From: Acidiferrobacterales bacterium
GTDB taxonomy: Bacteria > Pseudomonadota > Gammaproteobacteria > Arenicellales > Poriferihabitantaceae
Length of the DNA stretch: 64,000 bases
Assembly (NCBI GenBank): GCA_019633985.1
Contig: JAHQWE010000011.1
Location: 1-64,000 of the forward strand
Direction of reading: 5' to 3'
Position 1 is the first letter of the stretch, and each line of letters starts with the position of its first letter. The notes below the pieces were generated by a model. That model was not told the DNA's origin. It saw only the letters and a program-made list of their open reading frames with translations, and did no database searches. This document shows positions 1,223-14,066 of the stretch, in pieces. A program made the translations under genes and the position numbers.

Positions 1223-1817
1223 CTTCCCCTGTTTCGATCGAGTACTGAGCGCCAACAATTTGCAGACCGTCAGAAGCAATGAGTTTCTCCAGAATCTCGG
1301 AAGTATGGCGAAGGTGACTGACCGAAATCATGACATTGGCCCGGGTTGCATAAGACAGCAGCTTTTCCCTGTCGTTCGCTATTTCCGTGTCCAACAGTGG
1401 CTCCACCGCGGGTCTTATTCGATTGACGATGGAGGCCAGGTTGCGCGACTGTTCATGCGCAGGTTGCTGAAGCTCTGATACGCAGGCTTCCACCGCTCCG
1501 CACCGCGTGTGTCCAAGAACCACCACCAGGCGTACGCCAAATTTGGCTGCTGCGAATTCGATACTCCCGATCTGCGATGGAGCGACAATATTGCCGGCAA
1601 CCCGTATCACGAACAAATCACCCAGACCCTGGTCGAAAACCAGTTCCGCGGGTACCCTGGCATCCGAGCAACCCAGCACAATTGCGATAGGATGCTGTTG
1701 CTCTATAAAGGATTGACCACCACTTTCAGTGGTAAATCCTTTTAGTGAGGTATTGCCACTAATGTATCTGGCGTTACCTTCTTTGAGTCTCGAAAGCGCT
1801 TCTTCTGCCGGGATCAT
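1209..1817 (-). CDS. Beta-class carbonic anhydrase
   Basis: CSDARVPAE, RVAGN and HTRCGAV zinc/active-site motifs. Confidence 0.93.
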   Translation of the reverse strand: MIPAEEALSRLKEGNARYISGNTSLKGFTTESGGQSFIEQQHPIAIVLGCSDARVPAELVFDQGLGDLFVIRVAGNIVAPSQIGSIEFAAAKFGVRLVVVLGHTRCGAVEACVSELQQPAHEQSRNLASIVNRIRPAVEPLLDTEIANDREKLLSYATRANVMISVSHLRHTSEILEKLIASDGLQIVGAQYSIETGEVSFF

Positions 1818-2067
1818 TTTTACTCGAGTAGATTAGTTGCAACGGATATTAACAATTGGCGAAGGCGAGTGCAGTATAGACAGCCTTCTTACGAGTCAAT
1901 CTGCAGGATACCCTCTGGCAAGATCCGCATTGGATATTATTGGAATATGGTTTCGAGGACGACCTGAATCGTGCGAACCAACTTCCCGAATGTATGTGTT
2001 GCAAGAATATCATGTGGGTGTTCTGTTGAATTTTGTTTAACTGGTATAGCAGGGTAATTTTAAGTAT

Positions 2068-4131
2068 ATGACGAGAGACAAGCGCTACGACATCCTGTTT
2101 GAGCCGGTGCCAATTGGCCCAGTCACAGCAAAAAATCGCTTTTACCAGGTGCCACATTGCACCGGTCTCGGATGGCTTCGGCCGAGGATGGTGGCCGCAT
2201 TGCGGGGAATGAAGGCCGAAGGCGGCTGGGGTGTGGTGTGCACTGAGTATTGCTCGATTCACCCGGCCTCTGATGATCTGCCGCATCCCTATGCATCACT
2301 GTGGGACGAGGGGGATATCAAAGCCCATGCTCTGATGACGGAAAAGGTCCATGAACACGGTTCTCTGGCAGGGGTTGAACTATGGGTGAGTGGGTCGCGT
2401 TCTGCCAATTTGTTTACCAACGAAGTGGCGATGGATGTGTCATCGCGGCCCAATGCAGTGGGTATTCCCTATCAGACCCGGGCCATGGATAAGGCGGATA
2501 TCAGAGAATTACGGCGTTGGCATCGCAACGCCGCACTGCGGGCAATGGAAGCTGGGTTCGATATCGTTTACGTATATGTAACCCATGGGTATTTGCTCAG
2601 CCATTTTCTATCGCCCGATACCAATACCCGAATAGATGAATACGGCGGGTCACTGGAAAACCGAGTTCGCCTGATACGTGAGATTATCGAGGACACCAAA
2701 GAGGCAGTTGGTCATCGTTGCGCAGTTGCGGTTCGATTCTCCGCGGATCTGCCCGGGAGTATGCCCGGAACACCGCTGATCGGAGAGCGTCGAGATATGC
2801 TAGAAATGCTGGCGGAAATTCCTGACCTCTGGGATATTAATATCAGCGATTATTCCCAGGAAATGGGTGTCTCACGTTTCGTCAAGGAGGGTTCCCTCGA
2901 AGCCCATATGAACTACGTTAAGACTATCACTAGCAAGCCGGTGGTGACTGTGGGTCGCTTCACTTCTCCAGACACCATGGTGTCCCAGGTGAAACGGGGA
3001 ATAGTGGATTTTATTGGCGCCGCTCGTCCTTCCATTGCCGACCCGTATCTGCCGAAGAAAATTGAGGAAGGGCGGTTTGAAGATATCAGGGAATGTATTG
3101 GCTGCAACATTTGTTATACCGGTGACGCCAAAGGTACGCCCATTCGTTGTACACAAAACCCGACGATCAGCGAAGAATGGCGCAGGGGCTGGCATCCGGA
3201 AAGCATGGCGCCAAAAGGTTCTGACTCTTCAGTTCTGATCGTTGGTGGTGGCCCTGCAGGGTTGGAGGCTGCCCGCGGGTTGGGGTTACGTGGATACAAA
3301 GTGATGTTGGCCGATGCTGAACGCAATCTGGGTGGCAGAATCAACAGGGAAATTACCTTGCCCGGTCTCAGTGAATGGGTTCGGGTAAGGGATTACCGTT
3401 TGCAACAAATCGACAAACTGGACAATGTAGAAATTTTTCCGGAGAGTCAAATGCAACCAGAGGACATCATCGCACTGGGCGCAAATCATGTAGTGATCGC
3501 TACCGGGGCTCGCTGGCGATTGGACGGAATAGGTCTCTATCGTGACACGCCCTATAAGAATCTGCCTGAGGAACGGGTTTTCTCTCCGGATGACATTTTG
3601 AGTGGTCGAGTTCCGTCCGGGCCGACTCTGGTCTATGACGATGATCACTATTACATGGCTAGTGCAATCGCTGAAAAACTCCTGGACGAGAATATCCCTG
3701 TAATATTTGTGACACCAGAACCCATTGTGTCAGCCTGGGGGGAAAAAACGGCGGAGCAGCATCTGGTGCATCGGCGCCTGGCCGAGAAAGGGGCAAAAAT
3801 CATTACCGGCCATACGCTCGAATCCTTCGAGGGTGATCAGGCAACTCTTTCGTGTGTATATACCGAAGTCACCCTGACTTCAGACGTTGAAAATCTGGTT
3901 TTGGTTACGTCGCGTATTCCTAATGACGCGTTGTATCAATCGCTTATAAACAGACCTGCTGAAGCAAGCATCGAATATCCAAAGTCAATCACAAGAATTG
4001 GAGATTGTGAAGCGCCCGCTATTATTGCCGGGGCGATCTTTGCCGGACATCGCTATGCAAGAGAGTTGGACACGATAGTTGATCCAGACAATCGCATGAA
4101 GTACGACCGGGTATTTTTTGAAGACCGATAA
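2068..4131 (+). CDS. Trimethylamine/dimethylamine/histamine dehydrogenase-like FMN/[4Fe-4S] oxidoreductase (old yellow enzyme family), copy 1
   Basis: RFYQVPHC (cysteinyl-FMN site), EYGGSLENRVR, ARPSIADP, CIGCNIC-x11-C cluster motif, C-terminal GGGPAGLEAAR dinucleotide-binding domain; colinear with TMADH as recalled. Confidence 0.9.
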   Translation: MTRDKRYDILFEPVPIGPVTAKNRFYQVPHCTGLGWLRPRMVAALRGMKAEGGWGVVCTEYCSIHPASDDLPHPYASLWDEGDIKAHALMTEKVHEHGSLAGVELWVSGSRSANLFTNEVAMDVSSRPNAVGIPYQTRAMDKADIRELRRWHRNAALRAMEAGFDIVYVYVTHGYLLSHFLSPDTNTRIDEYGGSLENRVRLIREIIEDTKEAVGHRCAVAVRFSADLPGSMPGTPLIGERRDMLEMLAEIPDLWDINISDYSQEMGVSRFVKEGSLEAHMNYVKTITSKPVVTVGRFTSPDTMVSQVKRGIVDFIGAARPSIADPYLPKKIEEGRFEDIRECIGCNICYTGDAKGTPIRCTQNPTISEEWRRGWHPESMAPKGSDSSVLIVGGGPAGLEAARGLGLRGYKVMLADAERNLGGRINREITLPGLSEWVRVRDYRLQQIDKLDNVEIFPESQMQPEDIIALGANHVVIATGARWRLDGIGLYRDTPYKNLPEERVFSPDDILSGRVPSGPTLVYDDDHYYMASAIAEKLLDENIPVIFVTPEPIVSAWGEKTAEQHLVHRRLAEKGAKIITGHTLESFEGDQATLSCVYTEVTLTSDVENLVLVTSRIPNDALYQSLINRPAEASIEYPKSITRIGDCEAPAIIAGAIFAGHRYARELDTIVDPDNRMKYDRVFFEDR

Positions 4132-4136
4132 AAATC

Positions 4137-4613
4137 ATGAGTGCCAGTAAAAAATATCTCGATACCCTTCTTCAATACTACGAGGAGGAAATCTCCGGCG
4201 AAGCGTACTTATACGACTTGATCAATCACTTTGCGGAAAAGGAAAAGCTCACGCTACTGGCAAAAGTCGAACGGCATGCGGCCATAGCGGTTGCGCCTTT
4301 GTTAACCAAATATAAACTGGTGCCGAGAGCCGAAGACAAGCTGACCGAGGAGGGACTTGAACATGTCGCCCCCCACGCGGCGATGGAGTGGCGGGTATTT
4401 GGGCAATACATGGCCGATCGATACCCCAGGTATCTGGATGATTTTGCTGAACTGGAAAACATGGCGCCTCATGAAGACCGGACACTACTGCAATTTTTAA
4501 CCAGTCATGAGGTGGCAGCGATTGAATTTGCCAGACGGGAACTTGAAAATGATCCAGAGAGTTGCGCACCGTTAAGCCAGTACCTGGCGACTCCACATCC
4601 ACTACAGACATAA
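4137..4613 (+). CDS. Small all-helical protein, possibly ferritin-like
   Basis: 158 aa between two TMADH-like genes with very short gaps; glutamate/histidine-bearing helices (YYEEEISGEAYLYD, KVERHAAIA, LQFLTSHEVAAIEFARREL). Confidence 0.6.
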   Translation: MSASKKYLDTLLQYYEEEISGEAYLYDLINHFAEKEKLTLLAKVERHAAIAVAPLLTKYKLVPRAEDKLTEEGLEHVAPHAAMEWRVFGQYMADRYPRYLDDFAELENMAPHEDRTLLQFLTSHEVAAIEFARRELENDPESCAPLSQYLATPHPLQT

Positions 4614-4625
4614 CTCAATAGAAAT

Positions 4626-6692
4626 ATGACGAACCGAGATTCAAGATACGATATTCTTTTTGAGCCCGTTCAGATCGGCCCCAAGACAACAAAGAACCGT
4701 TTCTATCAGGTGCCGCACTGTAATGGCATGGGACACCGCTATCCCCAGGCGATGGCGGCAATGCGTGGTGTGAAGGCGGAAGGCGGTTGGGGCGTGGTCT
4801 GTACTGAAGAATGTTCTATTCACCCCTCCAGCGATCTCTCTCCCGCACCTTTGATGCGCCTGTGGGATGATAACGACTTGCCTGTGCACGAACTGATGGT
4901 AGAAAAAGTGCATGCCCATGATGCGCTGGCGGGGATCCAACTGGTGCATAACGGATTTGAAGTCGCGAACTATGTTTCCAGGCAGCCATCATTGGCGCCA
5001 TGCAATATTCCCACCGAAGCGTTTCCTCATGTGCAGGCGCGAGCGATGGATAAAGCGGACATTCGCGACTATCGAGACTGGCATGTTGCGGCGGCCAAGC
5101 GTGCCAAAAAAGCCGGCTACGACATCATCTATACCTACGCCGCCCACGGCACCATGACATTGCTTTTTCAGTTTTTATTAAGTCGCTATAACCAGAGAGC
5201 AGATGAATACGGTGGCAGCCTGGAGAATCGGGTGAGACTGGTGCGAGAGGTGCTGGAAGATTTAAAGGATGCGGTGGGTGACAGTTGCGCCGTGGCATTT
5301 CGATTCGCAGTGGATGAACTGCTCGGCAGCGGCGGCATGCAAAAATCAGAGGCGCAGGACATGGTTGGTTTGCTTGCAGAAATTCCCGATCTGTGGGATG
5401 TCAATGTTGCAGACTGGCATAACGATTCGATGCCTTCACGATTTGGTACTGAGGGCGGCCAGGAGGAATACATCGATTTCGTCAAACAAACCACAACCAA
5501 ACCGGTGGTTGGCGTGGGGCGTTTTACATCGCCGGATACCATGGTTAGCCAAATCAGGCGCGGGGTGATTGACTTGATCGGTGCAGCGCGGCCCTCTATT
5601 GCCGACCCATTCCTGCCAAACAAAATTGACCGCGGCGCTGTAGACGAAATTCGCGAGTGCATTGGTTGCAATATGTGCACGTCGGGAGACTATCTCGCCT
5701 ATCCCATGCGCTGTACCCAGAATCCAACCATGGGGGAAGAATGGCGACGAGGCTGGCATCCGGAACGCATCAGCAAAGCGGAATCAGACAGCACCGTGCT
5801 CGTTGTCGGCGGTGGTCCGGCGGGTCTGGAGGCGACCCTGGCGCTATCGCGGCGCGGTTACGAAACGACCTTGTCAGAAGCAAAGGGTGTTTTAGGGGGA
5901 AGGGTCATTCGAGAAAGCAGTCTTGCTCCTTTGAACGAATGGCGCCGCGTGGCTGACCATCGAAACTATATGTTGAGTCAGGCAGCCAATGTGCAGACCT
6001 ATACCGATTCTCCTCTAACCGCAGCTGACGTGCTGGACATGGGAGCAAATCATATTGCGATTGCGACCGGGTCGAAGTGGCGCACCGACTTTACTGGGTT
6101 GCAGCATCAGGCGCCGATACCCGTGTCTCACCCATCCAGTGTCGTGAGTCCCGATCGCGTTCTTTCTGGAGAGAAATTGAGCGGGGAGGTGATGATCTAT
6201 GATGATGACCACTATTATCTCGCTAGTGCCATTGCGGAACAGTTAGCGTGTGATGGAATGTCTGTCACGTTGGTAACCCCTGCTGCAGATATCGCGGAAT
6301 GGACACATCACACGCTGGAGAACGAGCACATACAGGTTCGTTTGCGGGAACTCGGTGTGGAAATCATCTGTAAAAAAGAAATGGTTTCCATACAGCAAGG
6401 TTTCGTCACACTGGGCTGCATTTATATGGAAACACCTTTGGAGTTGGCCGCTGATTTTGTGATCCCGGTAACTGCCCGCGATGCTGAGGATCAGCTGTAT
6501 CGTGATCTAACCGCAATGGAATCCGATTGGGCTGATGCTGGAATTCAATCGATTACCTCAATTGGCGATTGCTTCGCTCCTGCGACCATAGCGATGGCAG
6601 TACATGGAGGTCACGAATACGCGCGGCATCTGGATAAGTCCGAGGAAGAAAGGGCTTTCTTTAGAAGGGAGCTTGATTTGGGAGGTGAATAA
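4626..6692 (+). CDS. Trimethylamine/dimethylamine/histamine dehydrogenase-like FMN/[4Fe-4S] oxidoreductase, copy 2
   Basis: RFYQVPHC, EYGGSLENRVR, CIGCNMC-x11-C, VVGGGPAGLEATLALSRRGY; paralogous along its length to 2068..4131. Confidence 0.9.
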   Translation: MTNRDSRYDILFEPVQIGPKTTKNRFYQVPHCNGMGHRYPQAMAAMRGVKAEGGWGVVCTEECSIHPSSDLSPAPLMRLWDDNDLPVHELMVEKVHAHDALAGIQLVHNGFEVANYVSRQPSLAPCNIPTEAFPHVQARAMDKADIRDYRDWHVAAAKRAKKAGYDIIYTYAAHGTMTLLFQFLLSRYNQRADEYGGSLENRVRLVREVLEDLKDAVGDSCAVAFRFAVDELLGSGGMQKSEAQDMVGLLAEIPDLWDVNVADWHNDSMPSRFGTEGGQEEYIDFVKQTTTKPVVGVGRFTSPDTMVSQIRRGVIDLIGAARPSIADPFLPNKIDRGAVDEIRECIGCNMCTSGDYLAYPMRCTQNPTMGEEWRRGWHPERISKAESDSTVLVVGGGPAGLEATLALSRRGYETTLSEAKGVLGGRVIRESSLAPLNEWRRVADHRNYMLSQAANVQTYTDSPLTAADVLDMGANHIAIATGSKWRTDFTGLQHQAPIPVSHPSSVVSPDRVLSGEKLSGEVMIYDDDHYYLASAIAEQLACDGMSVTLVTPAADIAEWTHHTLENEHIQVRLRELGVEIICKKEMVSIQQGFVTLGCIYMETPLELAADFVIPVTARDAEDQLYRDLTAMESDWADAGIQSITSIGDCFAPATIAMAVHGGHEYARHLDKSEEERAFFRRELDLGGE

Positions 6693-6742
6693 AATTTCAT
6701 TGCCGATCAAGAGGAAAACCGTTTTTATAGGTGGAATGAGAT

Positions 6743-7741
6743 TTATTCGTAGCGCAAACTTGTCGCTTTACCCCAGAAAACCCTGTACGAGAATATGGTG
6801 TAAAGAAGAATCATGGGAAGTACAACCGCTGCTCCGTATAGAATCACTCTCAGTGATGCGGAAGCGCTGGCTGCCTCCCAGATGGTCATCTGATCCGGAA
6901 TGACATAAGGGTAGAAGCTGTAGGCGAGGCCGATAAACGAAGTCATAAAAACCATCGCGACACATACAAAGGGAACCCAGCACCATTCGTCGTTTGATCT
7001 CGGCAGACTCTTCAGAACAATGTGACTCCCTATCAGCAATCCGATCGCAATAACAGGAATGGGTGCGACCAGCAGTACATCTGGATAGGCAAACCAGCGT
7101 TCGAAAATTCGCTCGCTCACAAAGGGGTTCACGATCGAGACACAAAGTATTCCGGTCGCTGTGAAGATGAGAGTCGCCTTGGCCCATTTGATAGACCGCA
7201 GCTGTAGATCCTTTTCTGTTTTCATGATTAACCAGCAAGCGCCTACTAGTGCGTATCCGGCGGTGACGCAGATCGCACTCAACAGCGCAAACAACAGAGC
7301 GCTCGTCGTTTGTTCAAAACCAAGGATGTATCTACCCAGCATAAAACCCTGTGCACTGGATGCCATGAGTGAACCGATCCAGAACAAATTGTCCCAAAGT
7401 GCTTTGTATCCCGTTCGAGCTTTGGCTCGAAAGTCGAAAGATACCCCACGAAGAATGAGACCTAGCAACATCACTGCCACTGGAAAGTAGAGTGTCGTTA
7501 GTATGATTCCATGCGCCTTGGGAAACGCCACCAGTAACAATCCAACACCGAGAACAAGCCAGGTTTCATTGGCATCCCAGAACGGACCAATCGAAGCGAT
7601 CATTCTATCTCTGTGCTCAGCCGGTGCGGTTTTCAGTAGAATTCCTACACCGAGATCGTAACCGTCGAGAATCGCGTAGATCATCATCGATAGTCCCATC
7701 AGTCCAATGAACACCATCGGTAACCATTGATCTTCATGCAT
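6743..7741 (-). CDS. cydB: Cytochrome bd-type ubiquinol oxidase subunit II
   Basis: YAILDGYDLGVGIL, GPFWDANETWLVLGVG; overlaps cydA by one base. Confidence 0.93.
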   Translation of the reverse strand: MHEDQWLPMVFIGLMGLSMMIYAILDGYDLGVGILLKTAPAEHRDRMIASIGPFWDANETWLVLGVGLLLVAFPKAHGIILTTLYFPVAVMLLGLILRGVSFDFRAKARTGYKALWDNLFWIGSLMASSAQGFMLGRYILGFEQTTSALLFALLSAICVTAGYALVGACWLIMKTEKDLQLRSIKWAKATLIFTATGILCVSIVNPFVSERIFERWFAYPDVLLVAPIPVIAIGLLIGSHIVLKSLPRSNDEWCWVPFVCVAMVFMTSFIGLAYSFYPYVIPDQMTIWEAASASASLRVILYGAAVVLPMILLYTIFSYRVFWGKATSLRYE

Positions 7742-9093
7742 CAGGCGGTTCCTCCAATGGCGTTGAGCTGATTGAGCGCAGGTTTGGAAGTATGTTGATA
7801 CGCCGCTTTTCTCGCCATATAAAAAACTGTGGAAATATAGGCAATCAGCAGAAGCAAATACAAAAGAAGATACATCATTAAAGTGGTAAGAAGCGGGCCG
7901 CTCGCGACGTCGGAGGCGGCATCAGCGGTTTTGAGTATGCCGGCGACCAGATAGGGCTGTCTGCCAATCTCGGTGACGTACCAACCTGCGAGAGTTGCAA
8001 TCCATCCTGAGAAAGTCATCGCAACCAGGCACTTTGCGACGAATCGTGAAGGCATCCCTTTTTTCCAAAGCTGAAAGGTTGCCCACCAGGAAACCAGCAG
8101 CATCAATAAACCTATACCCACCATGACGCGAAAGCTGAAGAACACAGGAGCGACCGGGGGATGTTCACCCACAAACTCGTTCAGACCCTTGATTTCACCA
8201 TTCCAATCATGGGTCAGTATCAAACTCGCAACCTTGGGTATGCCAATGGCAGCGTGATTTTCTCGCAGGTCTTGATCAGGGAGGGCGAACAAGAGCAAGG
8301 GTGCACCTTTTTCGGTTTCCCACACACCCTCAATAGCGGCGATTTTTGCCGGCTGCACCTTCATTGTGTTCAAACCATGCAGATCCCCCACCAGGATTTG
8401 CAACGGAATCAGAATTGCGGCCGCAACTGCTCCAGTACGCAAAGAAACCCTCACTCCTGGACTGCGATCCTGTCTCAACCATCGATAGCTCGAGACCCCG
8501 GCGACTAAGAATGCTGCAGTCAGACCCGATGCGAGAAGCATATGTATAACCCGATACAGCAGTTGGGAATTCCACAGGATCGCTAACCAATCTGTGACAT
8601 GGGCTTCACCGTCGATCATGGTGTAACCTACGGGATATTGCATCCAGGTATTCAGGGCAAGAATCCAGTAGGCAGACAGAGAAGTGCCAACAGCAACAAG
8701 AAGCGTGGCAAAGGTGTGCAATCTCTCCGTTACCCGGCCAATACCAAATAGCATGATGCCCAGAAAGGTTGCCTCCAGAAAAAATGCCGTGAGTACTTCA
8801 TAAGCGAGAAGGGGACCGGCAATATTGCCCACGGTTTCCATAAACCCGGGCCAGTTGGTGCCGAATTGAAACGACATCGTAATTCCGCTCACAACGCCAA
8901 GGGCAAATGAAAGTGCAAAAATTTTGACCCAGAATCCATAAGCCGCCATCCATCTCGGGTCTCTGGTCCGATGAAATCGGACCTTAAAGAAAAACAGTAT
9001 CCACCCCAAAGCAATGGTGATTGTCGGAAACAGGATATGAAAACTAATATTGGCGGCAAACTGAATTCTTGCCAGAATCAATGCGTCGATCAT
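7741..9093 (-). CDS. cydA: Cytochrome bd-type ubiquinol oxidase subunit I, short Q-loop (Cio-like)
   Basis: RIQFAANISFHILFPT, NTWMQYPVG, GDLHGLNTMKVQPAKIAAIEG, GRQPY; 450 aa. Confidence 0.93.
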   Translation of the reverse strand: MIDALILARIQFAANISFHILFPTITIALGWILFFFKVRFHRTRDPRWMAAYGFWVKIFALSFALGVVSGITMSFQFGTNWPGFMETVGNIAGPLLAYEVLTAFFLEATFLGIMLFGIGRVTERLHTFATLLVAVGTSLSAYWILALNTWMQYPVGYTMIDGEAHVTDWLAILWNSQLLYRVIHMLLASGLTAAFLVAGVSSYRWLRQDRSPGVRVSLRTGAVAAAILIPLQILVGDLHGLNTMKVQPAKIAAIEGVWETEKGAPLLLFALPDQDLRENHAAIGIPKVASLILTHDWNGEIKGLNEFVGEHPPVAPVFFSFRVMVGIGLLMLLVSWWATFQLWKKGMPSRFVAKCLVAMTFSGWIATLAGWYVTEIGRQPYLVAGILKTADAASDVASGPLLTTLMMYLLLYLLLLIAYISTVFYMARKAAYQHTSKPALNQLNAIGGTA

Positions 9094-9116
9094 TTCTTTG
9101 TTCCTTTGTTGCCCGA

Positions 9117-9674
9117 TTAAGAGTTTGCGTTGGCTTTGGAAGACCAGTTTGCTTTTAGACCGACCAGTTTCTGTGTCACGTTGGCCAGTTTTAAAACTTT
9201 TTGAAGGCTATCCCGATCCATTTGCAGCAGTTTGTCTGACCACTTCGCTACCTGCTCCATCAGTTCACACATTTCCTGCATTCGGTTATAGGCGTAGGGG
9301 TTTGCTGGGGTTTCCTGAGAATCCAGTAGGGTATCTCTGAGCAGGGACAACGTCGGATCCAGCTCACGCTTGCGCCTTTCCTGGATGAGGGTCATGGCGA
9401 TATCCAGCGTATCTTCAGGCGTGGAGAAGTACTCTTTCCTGTCTCCAGGCAGATGTTGCAATTTCACGAGTTGCCAGGCCTGCAACTCTTTTAGACCCAT
9501 GCTGACATTGGATCGCGAGAGGTTGAGCGTTTCACTGATCTGATCTGCATTCAGCGGGTCTTCGCTAAGAAACAAGAGCGCGTACATTTGTCCGACAGTG
9601 CGATTAATCCCCCAGCGACTGCCCATTTCACCGAAGTGGAGTACGAAAGATTGTAAATCTGGAGAAAGATTCAT
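9117..9674 (-). CDS. GbsR/MarR family transcriptional regulator
   Basis: HTH segment LNADQISETLNLSRSNVSMGLKELQAWQLVKLQHLPGDRKEYF typical of GbsR-type proteins; first gene of the cydAB operon. Confidence 0.85.
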   Translation of the reverse strand: MNLSPDLQSFVLHFGEMGSRWGINRTVGQMYALLFLSEDPLNADQISETLNLSRSNVSMGLKELQAWQLVKLQHLPGDRKEYFSTPEDTLDIAMTLIQERRKRELDPTLSLLRDTLLDSQETPANPYAYNRMQEMCELMEQVAKWSDKLLQMDRDSLQKVLKLANVTQKLVGLKANWSSKANANS

Positions 9675-9686
9675 GATTTATTGTAT

Positions 9687-9704
9687 TTTCAGTAATTACT
9701 GAAA
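9687..9704. promoter_or_regulatory. Perfect 18-bp palindrome TTTCAGTAATTACTGAAA, candidate GbsR-type operator
   Basis: Read directly; lies between the divergent GbsR-cydAB operon and the kinase gene at 9763. Confidence 0.7.
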
Positions 9705-9762
9705 TTATAGAAAAAAGTGGAATATAAATCAATAAACGCTAATTAAGAGTTGACCGGAGATC

Positions 9763-10794
9763 ATGATATTGAGAGATTTCATGGTTCTTGCGCTTAGGGC
9801 GCTTAACCAAATAAAAGCGCAAATGTGGCCAACTGAACAACGTTTTCTTCACGATGATCAACGTAACACGCTCTTTTCGAAAGTCGTAAATACATTTGAT
9901 CAATGTGTGCGAGATCAGGCAATTGATGTAGATCTGTCGGCTTATCTCCGCGACCTTTATTTGCCGCTGGCTGCCTGGCTCATGGAAAAAAAAACCGAGC
10001 AGGAAAAACCTCTGGTGATCGGAATTTGTGGTGGTCAGGGATCGGGCAAATCCACATCAACGGCGCTGTTGGCCACCACGCTAAAGGAGGGGTTTCAGTG
10101 CCGAGTGGCGAATCTTTCGATTGATGACATTTACAAAACCAGAGCAGAACGCAAACGTTTGGCGGAGGAGGTGCATCCTCTTTTCTTAACCAGAGGGGTG
10201 CCCATGACCCATGATGTTCGCCTGGGAATCGATACCATCGAAACGCTGTGTCATCAGGGGCAGGAGGATTCCTGCTCGCTCCCTCTGTTTGATAAAGCGA
10301 TCGATGACAGAGCAGATCGTTCCAGGTGGCCACTATTCAAGGGTAAACCGGATGTCATCATACTCGAAGGGTGGTGTGTGGGAGCGATAGCGGAAAGTGA
10401 AGTGAGCTTGGGTGCGCCAATTAATTCTCTGGAGCGGGATGAAGATCCGGATGGATGCTGGAGGCGGTGTGTCAATTCTGCGTTGCAAGATGAGTACCAG
10501 ACACTTTTTGCCTACCTCGATGTGTTAATGCTGTTGAAAGTAGAGAGTATGAAAAAAGTGTTTACCTGGAGACGGCTTCAGGAGAGAAAGCTTGCGCAAA
10601 AAGTTGCAGCAGATCCTTCGCCTGGTAGCGACATTCGGGTGATGTCAAAAAAACAGGTTGACAGATTTATTATGCACTACGAAAGACTCACCAGGCATAT
10701 TTTGCAAGAGATGCCGGAGCGAGCAGACATTGTTTTACCAATCGATGATACGCATAACCCAGCGGCTGTGCGGATCAATCAACCGATAATCTGA
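9763..10794 (+). CDS. P-loop kinase, D-glycerate 3-kinase-like
   Basis: Walker A GGQGSGKST, SIDDIYKT, VIILEGWCVG; resembles the plant GLYK/YGR205W group. Confidence 0.75.
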   Translation: MILRDFMVLALRALNQIKAQMWPTEQRFLHDDQRNTLFSKVVNTFDQCVRDQAIDVDLSAYLRDLYLPLAAWLMEKKTEQEKPLVIGICGGQGSGKSTSTALLATTLKEGFQCRVANLSIDDIYKTRAERKRLAEEVHPLFLTRGVPMTHDVRLGIDTIETLCHQGQEDSCSLPLFDKAIDDRADRSRWPLFKGKPDVIILEGWCVGAIAESEVSLGAPINSLERDEDPDGCWRRCVNSALQDEYQTLFAYLDVLMLLKVESMKKVFTWRRLQERKLAQKVAADPSPGSDIRVMSKKQVDRFIMHYERLTRHILQEMPERADIVLPIDDTHNPAAVRINQPII

Positions 10795-10815
10795 TATTCG
10801 TCTTGCAGCAGCTTT

Positions 10816-11604
10816 TTAAGGAGTTGTTTGGTAACCCGCTAGCCAGCTTAATCCCTCATCCGTCGTAGAGGCGGGAATATATTCTGCGCCGATAAATCCC
10901 TGGTATCCCAATTTGTCGATGGCGTCCAGCAGCCAGGGGTAATTGATTTCGCCGCTGTCGGGTTCTCCTCTGCCGGGAACAGCAGCAATTTGAATATGGT
11001 CGACATAGGGTAGTGCGTTTGATAACTGACCTAAGATGTTTCCTTCTGTCATTTGTACGTGATAGCAGTCGAACATGAGCCCAATATTCGTGATCTGATG
11101 TTTGAGACGCAGCGCTTCAATAATTGCAATTCCTTGGGCGGTTCTGTGCAATACATAACCGGGTTTGTCTATTTGATTAATCGGTTCGATAAGAATGCTG
11201 ATCTGGTTTTCCGCCGCCCGTTTGCAGGCGTAGGTCAGGTTTTGCAGAAAACAAGCGTTCGCACACGCAGCATCTTGATGCAATCCGGCCATCACGTGGA
11301 CGCGACTGGCGCTGATTTTCATGGCGTAATCGAGCGCCTGATCGATCGCGGCCCGAGCCCGATCTTCTTCACCTGGAACAGCGCACAGGCCAAACTCGCC
11401 GTCCGAAATTTCTCCTGGATGCGTGTTGAGAGCTAGCATGACCAGTCCAGTTTCTCGGAGGGCTGCAGATACTTCATTGGGGTCTGAGTCATAGGGGAAG
11501 TGGCATTCTACTGCGGAAAATCCTGCTTTTTTCGCCGCAAGAATCCGTTCAGGTAAAGAGAGTTCCTGCCAGAGGAACCCAAGGTTGGCTGAAAATTGAA
11601 CCAT
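10816..11604 (-). CDS. Hydroxypyruvate isomerase family TIM-barrel protein
   Basis: FSANLGFLWQELSLPERI, LIEPINQIDKPGY, DCYHVQMTEG, HIQIAAVPGRGEPDSGEI. Confidence 0.85.
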   Translation of the reverse strand: MVQFSANLGFLWQELSLPERILAAKKAGFSAVECHFPYDSDPNEVSAALRETGLVMLALNTHPGEISDGEFGLCAVPGEEDRARAAIDQALDYAMKISASRVHVMAGLHQDAACANACFLQNLTYACKRAAENQISILIEPINQIDKPGYVLHRTAQGIAIIEALRLKHQITNIGLMFDCYHVQMTEGNILGQLSNALPYVDHIQIAAVPGRGEPDSGEINYPWLLDAIDKLGYQGFIGAEYIPASTTDEGLSWLAGYQTTP

Positions 11605-11801
11605 AGAGTTAGAGAAACATTTCGAAAGACGCCCGCATTCTAGAGTGTATTTGCCGTGGTTTGTACGGAGATTGTTGCAAGATGATGGAATGGTCTACAT
11701 TTCTTATCCTGGGGCTGTTTGGTGACGTATTTTGCGGAAGTGAGATCGGCTTGATGGATTGCTGCACTGTATAATCGCCACCCCAGAACTTCTCCAAATG
11801 C

Positions 11802-14066
11802 TTGATGTTCCAACCGGTTTTCCGTCTCTTCGTTACCGCTTTAATGACCGTGTTCCTCAGCACGGGTGGCGCCATGGTTTATGCGCAAGATTCGGAACAG
11901 AGCGCAGTAAAGAACGAACTGCAAGGCGCTATTGAGGCATATCAAAAGGGTAACCAAGGTGATGTGATCCGTTATTTCATGCAGCGAGGATATGAAGGAA
12001 ACGTCGCCGCACAGTTTAATTTGGGGGTGATCAACTATCAAAGAGAGGAGAGCAAGGTTGGTCTGCGTGAGGCAAGATTCTGGTTTTCTGAAGCAGCGGA
12101 AGAGGGCGATCTGGTTGCCCAGATGAACTTAGGATTGCTGGAAATCGATTTGGGTCTCGCTCAATCCGACAATGATCTGCTTGAATCAGGAACACGGTGG
12201 TTACGACGTTCGGCGGAGTCCGGATATCACCCTGCTCAGGTAAATCTGGGGGCGATGCTTGCTGCGGGGAAAATTGTTTCCCCCTATGAAAATGAAGGCG
12301 CGGCATGGTTGCGTGTGGCATCAAAAGCTGGTGATCCGCGTGCCGCTCAAATTCTGCAACTGCTTGCAGGTTCTGAGCCAGATGAATCAGTTTTGTCTCT
12401 GGCGTATCCGGTCGAGCTGCAGCTACGAGGGGCGCCCTATCGTGGTGGTAGCAAAGTGAAAATCGATAGTGCGCCGGTCTATGCGGAGCCTTCGCAGGAT
12501 CTTCCCCCTATTGCATCCATGACCGCAGGCGCGCTAGTTGAGGTGCTTGATCGGGATCGAGATTGGGTAAGCGTTAAGATTCCCGCGGGATTACCCGTTT
12601 GGATTTTCGCAAGTACCGTGGACATTGAGTCTGGATTCGTTCGAGTGAACCGCTTGGAGGTGCCGCTCTATACCGCACCCAACAACGAAGAGAACGCAAT
12701 CGGATTGGGTACGGTGACTAAAGGAGAGGTGCTGCATCTGATAGAAGAACGCGGTGACTGGCTCCTTGTGCGATCACCGGAGCGATTTGCCGGTTGGATG
12801 CGGTACGCGGATATTGAGTCAAAAATCGCTGATTTCATTGCTGACAGCGACGAGCCAATGGTGGATGGCAAACGCTACAGTTTGGAATCACTGGAAAAGA
12901 AGGGCCGGCACACTGCCGTTATGATCAGCGATGCAGAAGTATTGAAGCAACCTGATAGGAGCAGCGCTGTGGTTGGTGTTGTGGAGCGTAATCTAAAGGT
13001 GCAAGTGATCGAGCAAAAAAACGATTATGTTTTTGCCAAGAATATTCGCATCACCGGTTGGGTCAGTGCAGAGCTTCTGCGATTTGAAAATAGTCTCAAC
13101 GGTAGCGAACGAGTTGCCATTGTTGATACGGAAACCGCACGGGTCCGCAGCAGACCAAGTGTAGACTCAAAACAAATCGGTCAGTTAGTGCGAAATCAAA
13201 AAGTAGTCGTCGTCACTAAACGGGAAGGTTGGGTGCGAGTAGAGATCGGAGAAGGATCAGGCTGGATTCTGGCGCGACTGATTTCTGAACCAAGCACCGA
13301 AGAAAGCGCGGCCATTTCCAATGAGTCTGAGATCATCGCAACAGAGCTCGAAAAAGAAGTCGGTGAAGAAGAACAAATTGCGAGCTCGGACACTTCGCCA
13401 GACCTGGCAAGTATGCAATCTGAAACGTCCGCAGGGAATCTAATCGATGATAAAGAGGTGCTTGATCTTCAATCGAGTGTTGAGTATCTGGATTCCACAT
13501 CTGCTGGTTCCGAGAATATAGTGGTCGATTTATCTGTCGAGGCAGCGATAGTGCAAAAGAGGATTACGCGGGAAGTGGGAAAGGAAGAGCAGATTGCTGA
13601 GACCGAAGCCGAACAAACAACCGAAAATGACGAACAACCGGAGGTTCCTGCACAACCGTCCGGCGCCCAAGAGAATGGCGACAGCAACGTTCTTTATCGA
13701 ACAAACCAGGGCGCAATTTTATACGCGTCAGATAGCGTTGAGTCCCAGCCGCTCGGCAGGTTGCTTTCGGTAACAAAAGTGGAAGGAAAAGCCGATTTCT
13801 CGATGCTTCCATTGATCAATCCGGCGCCAGTTTACGGCTGGGTGTATGCCAGCTTAACCAGGTTAAATGCAGGAAAAGCTGAAATCATTACCGACGGTGT
13901 ACGTATTCGCCTAGATCCTACGACTGCACGTAAAAATATTATCGGAGCGCGTAATCAGGGGGATGAACTAACGGTACTGGAACAGCAGGGTGACTGGGTG
14001 AAGGTGGTCTTGGATCCCGTGGAAGGTTGGGTTTCCGCAGTGAACCTGGAGCGCATGGACAACTAG
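11802..14066 (+). CDS. Secreted Sel1-repeat and multi-SH3b domain protein
   Basis: N-terminal signal-like segment, Sel1-type repeats (AAEEGDLVAQMNLGLLEI..., SAESGYHPAQVNLGAML), then several SH3b modules (VRSRPSVDSKQIGQLVRNQKVVVVTKREGWVRVE...GWI). Confidence 0.8.
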   Translation: MMFQPVFRLFVTALMTVFLSTGGAMVYAQDSEQSAVKNELQGAIEAYQKGNQGDVIRYFMQRGYEGNVAAQFNLGVINYQREESKVGLREARFWFSEAAEEGDLVAQMNLGLLEIDLGLAQSDNDLLESGTRWLRRSAESGYHPAQVNLGAMLAAGKIVSPYENEGAAWLRVASKAGDPRAAQILQLLAGSEPDESVLSLAYPVELQLRGAPYRGGSKVKIDSAPVYAEPSQDLPPIASMTAGALVEVLDRDRDWVSVKIPAGLPVWIFASTVDIESGFVRVNRLEVPLYTAPNNEENAIGLGTVTKGEVLHLIEERGDWLLVRSPERFAGWMRYADIESKIADFIADSDEPMVDGKRYSLESLEKKGRHTAVMISDAEVLKQPDRSSAVVGVVERNLKVQVIEQKNDYVFAKNIRITGWVSAELLRFENSLNGSERVAIVDTETARVRSRPSVDSKQIGQLVRNQKVVVVTKREGWVRVEIGEGSGWILARLISEPSTEESAAISNESEIIATELEKEVGEEEQIASSDTSPDLASMQSETSAGNLIDDKEVLDLQSSVEYLDSTSAGSENIVVDLSVEAAIVQKRITREVGKEEQIAETEAEQTTENDEQPEVPAQPSGAQENGDSNVLYRTNQGAILYASDSVESQPLGRLLSVTKVEGKADFSMLPLINPAPVYGWVYASLTRLNAGKAEIITDGVRIRLDPTTARKNIIGARNQGDELTVLEQQGDWVKVVLDPVEGWVSAVNLERMDN

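Follow-up and report, generated by a model that had tools for sequence, protein, structure and literature searches.

The three genes and their products

We analysed a stretch of 64,000 nucleotides from an Acidiferrobacterales bacterium (contig JAHQWE010000011.1 of assembly GCA_019633985.1, positions 1 to 64,000; hereafter the window), in which two paralogous flavoenzyme genes flank a gene for a small helical protein. All three lie on the forward strand: P0001 (2068..4131, 687 aa), P0002 (4137..4613, 158 aa) and P0003 (4626..6692, 688 aa). The stop codon of P0001 is followed by the start of P0002 after 5 nt (aaatc, 4132..4136), and that of P0002 by the start of P0003 after 12 nt (ctcaatagaaat, 4614..4625). 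An earlier note on this DNA had described these open reading frames (ORFs) and gaps and had taken them for one operon; the frames, their limits and the gaps were confirmed, and a single operon is likely. The explanation that we favour, and to which we would give about an even chance, is that the two flanking genes code for separate enzymes, both amine dehydrogenases of histamine dehydrogenase (HDH) type, and the middle gene for a ferritin-like protein that serves as a dedicated partner of P0001.

P0001 and P0003 are 51-52% identical, and both show the architecture of their family over about 690 aa, with an Oxidored_FMN domain (E 1.5e-70 and 1.4e-71, respectively) and pyridine-nucleotide-type (dinucleotide-binding) domains. 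In P0001 the Pfam match to the domain that binds flavin mononucleotide (FMN) covers residues 10-336 (2095..3075), and the 4Fe-4S cysteine motif CIGCNICYTGDAKGTPIRC, recognised in the sequence and by alignment to HDH and trimethylamine dehydrogenase (TMADH), lies at 3094..3150, with nucleotide limits set by eye. The two motifs pointed out before, RFYQVPHC with the flavinylation residue Cys30 and CIGCNxC-x11-C with the four cluster cysteines, are present in both proteins. Comparison with solved structures gave 682-778 bits against the HDHs of Nocardioides simplex (3k30) and Rhizobium sp. (6de6) and 529-539 bits against TMADH (1djn), the closest structures being 3k30/6de6 for P0001 and 6de6/3k30 for P0003. 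The x11 spacing of the cluster motif is also of the HDH type, whereas the alignment gives CIGCNVC-x12-C for TMADH. On this sequence evidence P0001 and P0003 are predicted covalent-FMN/4Fe-4S amine dehydrogenases that are nearer to HDH than to TMADH.

The aromatic bowl of TMADH consists of Tyr60, Trp264 and Trp355. According to the alignment columns, P0001 retains only Tyr60, its Trp264 being replaced, P0003 retains only Trp264, its Tyr60 being replaced, and Trp355 is found in neither. The description of the two proteins as TMADH-like therefore holds for the superfamily and the cofactor motifs and fails in the strict sense, because the bowl is not retained and the proteins are HDH-like; the active-site columns and the tree rule out TMADH proper as their identity. 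P0001 further shares with TMADH an Asp where HDH has Ile69, and the identity of clade A, defined below, to TMADH is about 40%.

The pocket residues studied in the Rhizobium sp. enzyme (Rsp HDH) are Gln60, Asn110, Trp263 and Asp354 (PMC10180351). At these columns P0001 carries Tyr60, Arg110, Tyr263 and Asp354, and P0003 carries Glu60, Glu110, Trp263 and Asp354, so that neither corresponds to HDH proper. The window proteins have the domains, the flavinylation Cys, the x11 cluster motif, the catalytic Tyr and His and Asp354 in common with HDH, but not its Gln60 and Asn110, and clade A is about 50% identical to it. Of the catalytic triad, Tyr171 and His174 occur in both proteins; the third position is Asp in P0003 and Glu in P0001 and all of clade A, where N. 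simplex HDH and TMADH carry Asp.

A maximum-likelihood tree of 77 proteins, with support from the Shimodaira-Hasegawa-like approximate likelihood ratio test (SH-aLRT), places P0001 in a clade of 40 members including itself (clade A, SH-aLRT 100) and assigns P0003, with three other loci, to a separate clade of small size (clade B, SH-aLRT 100). Tyr in place of Trp263 and Glu266 in place of the Asp of the triad are found in P0001 and in 39 of the 39 other members, and these columns set clade A apart from HDH, TMADH, clade B and the paralogs of a further clade, X. Clade A also retains the TMADH-like Tyr60 and the HDH-like Asp354. The two pocket residues found in this clade only therefore define clade A, as far as sequences can tell, as a distinct specificity class with an active-site signature of its own, although its substrate cannot be read from the residues. 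The protein of 6l6j, entered in the PDB as an Oxidored_FMN domain-containing protein and presumably the pseudooxynicotine dehydrogenase of nicotine degraders, belongs to the same overall family with a similar score, but has Ala instead of the flavinylation Cys and occupies a separate branch of the tree.

The window genome (G000) has a third paralog, on contig C63, which is a true HDH ortholog with 64% identity to 6de6. In its locus (L037, 1-7504) this paralog lies on the same strand as, and 15 nt from, a gene similar to the HpaB-family 4-hydroxyphenylacetate-3-hydroxylase, with PotABCD-type transporter genes alongside, and the locus may possibly serve the utilisation of histamine or an aromatic amine.

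P0002 belongs to no family in Pfam or NCBIfam, and searches for relatives among solved structures, with the single sequence and with a profile, gave matches at chance level only. Its AlphaFold2 model is a confident four-helix bundle (predicted local distance difference test score, pLDDT, 94.5; predicted template modelling score, pTM, 0.88). The first Foldseek match is MJ0754 (3q4r, probability 1.00), followed by ferritins, Dps and aldehyde-deformylating oxygenase, and nearly all matches are ferritin-like, which bears out the suspicion that the middle protein has this fold. P0002 has in common with the superfamily (MJ0754, ferritins, Dps, rubrerythrin and the cyanobacterial aldehyde-deformylating oxygenase) the four-helix bundle, with Foldseek probabilities mostly of 0.9-1.0, and a Glu roughly halfway along each of helices 1, 2 and 4, but it has no detectable sequence relation to these proteins and no ExxH pair, and the best Foldseek E value is 0.0036 at 18% identity. 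Viral proteins compared by fold gave generic ferritin-like matches only.

Among 59 sequences of the family (P0002 and 58 homologs), Y7, Y14, E16, E18, G21, E45, P97, F103, P111, D114, H124 and E125 are invariant, and E22, W85, E107 and E135 nearly so. After addition of homologs with 26-32% identity from Phyllobacterium, Paraburkholderia and Rhodococcus, G21, E45, D114, H124 and E125 are still invariant. The canonical di-iron ligands (E, ExxH, E, ExxH) were not found: P0002 has E45xxA48 and E125xxA128, positions 48 and 128 are mostly Ala in the family, and helix 3 has no conserved Glu at its middle. Judging from the positions of the residues on the modelled helices, the E18/E22-E45-H124/E125 cluster probably binds metal, and a divergent metal site is plausible. 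The rubredoxin-type cysteine domain of rubrerythrin is absent, P0002 having a single Cys, and weak matches to rubrerythrin or DUF2383 were obtained for a few homologs only. The distant family members (26-33%; L100, L101, L102 and L103) are located on plasmids of Phyllobacterium, Paraburkholderia and Rhodococcus, away from amine dehydrogenases, and two of them (L100 and L102) are annotated as hypothetical protein.

Recurrence of clade A with the small protein

When 84,980 species genomes were scanned with the small protein as query, 61 loci were obtained, mostly from the Roseobacter group. The small protein was found to adjoin, or to be fused to, an HDH-like enzyme in dozens of other, mostly marine bacteria. 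The clade A gene ends at most 150 bp before the small protein in 39 of the 56 loci with enough upstream sequence, and a further HDH-like paralog lies directly upstream of the clade A gene in 24 of these 39. In 17 loci, counting one partial contig (L088), the clade A enzyme and the small protein form one continuous ORF with a short linker, and the fused loci include isolate genomes of Ruegeria, Shimia, Cognatiyoonia and Roseovarius. The fused and the separate state changed at least seven times on the tree, four of the changes being forced by well-supported branches, and the tree therefore indicates that fusion or splitting of the two arose repeatedly. Reverse-strand ORF families in the neighbourhood lists (f11, f14, f37, f39 and f187), which are apparent overlaps of real genes, were ignored.

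Because the 61 loci had been collected with the small protein as seed, we also drew an unbiased sample from one family of Rhodobacteraceae type, with a single genome for each genus (299 genomes in all). Clade A was present in 21 of them, the small protein in 14 and both in 9, where about one would be expected (Fisher p 1e-8), and in all nine genomes the two genes were adjacent or fused. These results show that the conserved unit consists of clade A and the small protein. A conserved neighbourhood therefore exists in the form of this pair. The full arrangement of the cassette, with the small protein between a clade A and a clade B gene in this order, is rare, being found in the window genome only, among the genomes read. 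The closest parallel is genome G857 (L169), in which the layout flavoenzyme / small protein / flavoenzyme recurs and an ortholog of P0003 (69% identity) is part of the same cluster.

Some loci showed further features. In L051, L052 and L056 (about 7749-12127) the small protein is placed between a molybdopterin oxidoreductase and a GMC-type oxidoreductase, which represents a different partner. A histone-deacetylase-family gene (acetylpolyamine hydrolase-like) adjoins the small protein in L039 and L096. The clade A genes of two relatives, L105 (G001) and L129 (G013), are reported with in-frame stops; that of G013 is broken inside, and in G001 the stop is at the very end.

Pathway context and candidate substrates

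PotABCD-type transporter genes are present in 20-28 of the 39 loci. Other recurring neighbours encode a BetI-like TetR regulator, a class III aminotransferase (NF005447, above the cut-off), a PuuC-like aldehyde dehydrogenase, a flavin adenine dinucleotide (FAD) amine oxidase, a cupin and a protein of the dimethylglycine dehydrogenase (DMGDH)/GcvT type, and some clusters also contain agmatine-deiminase-family, histone-deacetylase-family, M24 creatinase-like and GbcA-like Rieske genes. The G857 cluster holds PotDABC, the clade A gene, the small protein, a further HDH-like enzyme and an aminotransferase, with the P0003 ortholog on the opposite side of the transporter genes. Orthologs of clade A in the order to which the window belongs are often located beside Pot genes or a flavin amine oxidase of the twin-arginine translocation (Tat) type. 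A transporter for spermidine, putrescine and cadaverine has been described in Ruegeria pomeroyi (potFGHI, SPO3466-3469; PMC10130141), and the clusters related to the cassette may be compared with it: in them, genes for an aminotransferase, an amine oxidase and an aldehyde dehydrogenase accompany those of a Pot-type ABC transporter.

Taken together, the recurring neighbours point to clusters that would import and degrade polycationic amines, which may be N-methylated. The earlier suggestion of a polyamine or methylated substrate is accordingly retained as the best guess, one taken from the neighbouring genes. A narrower reading, which concerns the substrate only and is compatible with the explanation favoured here, is that the substrates are N-methylated or quaternary amines and the enzymes N-demethylating dehydrogenases. 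We regard it as possible though unlikely. Clade A retains the Tyr60, Asp69 and Tyr176 pattern of TMADH, and the BetI-like regulators, the DMGDH/GcvT-type proteins and the GbcA-like Rieske oxygenases of some clusters would suit such substrates; however, the TMADH bowl is incomplete, with Tyr for Trp264 and, in place of Trp355, the Asp found in HDH, and the Pot-type transporters and the agmatine-deiminase-like, histone-deacetylase-family and PuuC-like genes speak for polyamines.

Possible roles of the small protein and of the second flavoenzyme

By analogy with the chemistry of the family, P0001 would oxidise a C-N bond of a cationic, polyamine-like and possibly N-methylated amine at its covalent FMN, and the electrons would leave through the 4Fe-4S cluster, probably, as the family suggests, to the electron-transferring flavoprotein; the cofactor residues are present. 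P0002 may act with P0001 as a subunit or as a tethered accessory, as the recurrent adjacency and the fusions suggest, and it might most likely handle electrons, O2 or peroxide, or a reactive product released by the dehydrogenase. Peroxide or O2 handling, electron acceptance and product processing are all compatible with the data. P0003 would be an independent enzyme for another amine of the same pathway, and the genes for uptake and for the later aldehyde steps, which stand next to the homologs in other clusters, would lie elsewhere in the window genome.

Several observations weigh against a dedicated partnership within a polyamine pathway. In the order of the window (109 genomes), about 29 further orthologs of clade A are listed, mostly without the small protein, and among the loci of this order that were read a complete small protein stands beside clade A in only one, plus L030. 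The small protein also occurs without clade A, directly after a Tat-type flavin amine oxidase (L039, L040 and L096), after a molybdopterin enzyme (L051, L052 and L056) and in unrelated plasmid contexts. The AlphaFold2 model of a fused protein has a low-confidence linker and a pTM of 0.67, and so demonstrates no docking of the two parts and supports no conclusion on an interface. With both ExxH motifs absent from the P0002 family, a classic di-iron site is doubtful. The cassette itself is not flanked, within the window, by any transporter gene akin to those in the clusters of its homologs, and gene neighbours are the only source of the substrate assignment.

Part of this evidence would suit a general protective ferritin-like protein, concerned with peroxide or iron, that travels with amine-oxidising enzymes producing H2O2 or radicals and has no direct catalytic part. 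The small protein follows other oxidising enzymes, it is optional for clade A, and it shares its fold with Dps, ferritin and rubrerythrin. We nevertheless consider a free protectant rather unlikely, since the repeated covalent fusion to clade A specifically and the strict adjacency are hard to explain in this way, and the canonical ligand motifs of Dps, ferritin and rubrerythrin are missing. A bolder version of the partnership, to which we attach a low probability, is that clade A and the ferritin-like domain form a self-contained two-component catalyst. A metal site in that domain would then receive electrons from the iron-sulfur flavoprotein, or take over its aminoaldehyde or iminium product, and carry out a second chemical step (e.g. 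O2 reduction, deformylation or N-dealkylation) and allow marine bacteria to degrade methylated or long-chain polyamines.

The earlier note had raised the possibility of a heteromeric amine dehydrogenase, in which both flavoenzymes form one enzyme and the small helical protein is an assembly or bridging subunit. In its favour, the flavoenzymes are neighbours in the window, two HDH-like paralogs stand side by side in 24 of the 39 related loci, and G857 repeats the layout with the small protein in the middle. Nevertheless, clade A stands without a neighbour from clade B or X in many genomes of the window's order, and G700 has a P0003-type enzyme with PotDABC and an aminotransferase without clade A; an obligate heteromer of A and B was rejected on these grounds. 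The second paralog comes from differing clades in differing clusters, that of the other bacteria falling in clade X of the tree, and the entries 3k30 and 6de6 each hold two chains of identical sequence, with no second kind of subunit. Orthologs of P0003, with 65-69% identity in G857 and G700, are rare, being found, at the threshold used, in 2 of the 299 genomes and, with the window counted, in 2 of the 109 of the window's order. Each of the three, clade A, clade B and the small protein, is encountered in the absence of the other two; the proposal therefore finds no support, and we judge any form of it improbable. A chance neighbourhood in a fragmentary genome would agree with an exact gene order seen in one genome and is conceivable for P0003, but the nine adjacent co-occurrences against about one expected, and the fusions, refute it for clade A and the small protein, and as a whole it is very improbable.

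The favoured explanation, two HDH-type enzymes and a partner of P0001, combines a known enzyme family with a new subfamily, clade A, and a new partner family, that of P0002. We found no described cluster of HDH-like enzymes with a ferritin-like protein in the open-access literature searched, in agreement with the earlier note, whose author knew of none. Through its repeated fusion to an enzyme class of well-known chemistry, a ferritin-like family that neither Pfam nor NCBIfam contains gains a functional context, and the HDH-like enzymes gain a subfamily marked by an active-site signature of its own. Polyamines belong to the dissolved organic nitrogen on which Roseobacter-group bacteria draw. 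The cluster offers a concrete candidate, open to experimental test, for a route of amine degradation not yet described, and cultured strains with fused or adjacent clade A and small-protein genes exist.

A scan of positions 1800-6800 for promoters and terminators gave no signal exceeding that of shuffled sequences, and the base composition around the cassette shows no island-like step. Upstream of the cassette lies a carbonic-anhydrase-like gene on the opposite strand (1209-1817), and downstream are convergent cytochrome-bd-type genes (6743-9093). These oxidase genes, directly 3' of the cassette, are accompanied by a MarR/GbsR-like regulator (6743-9674).

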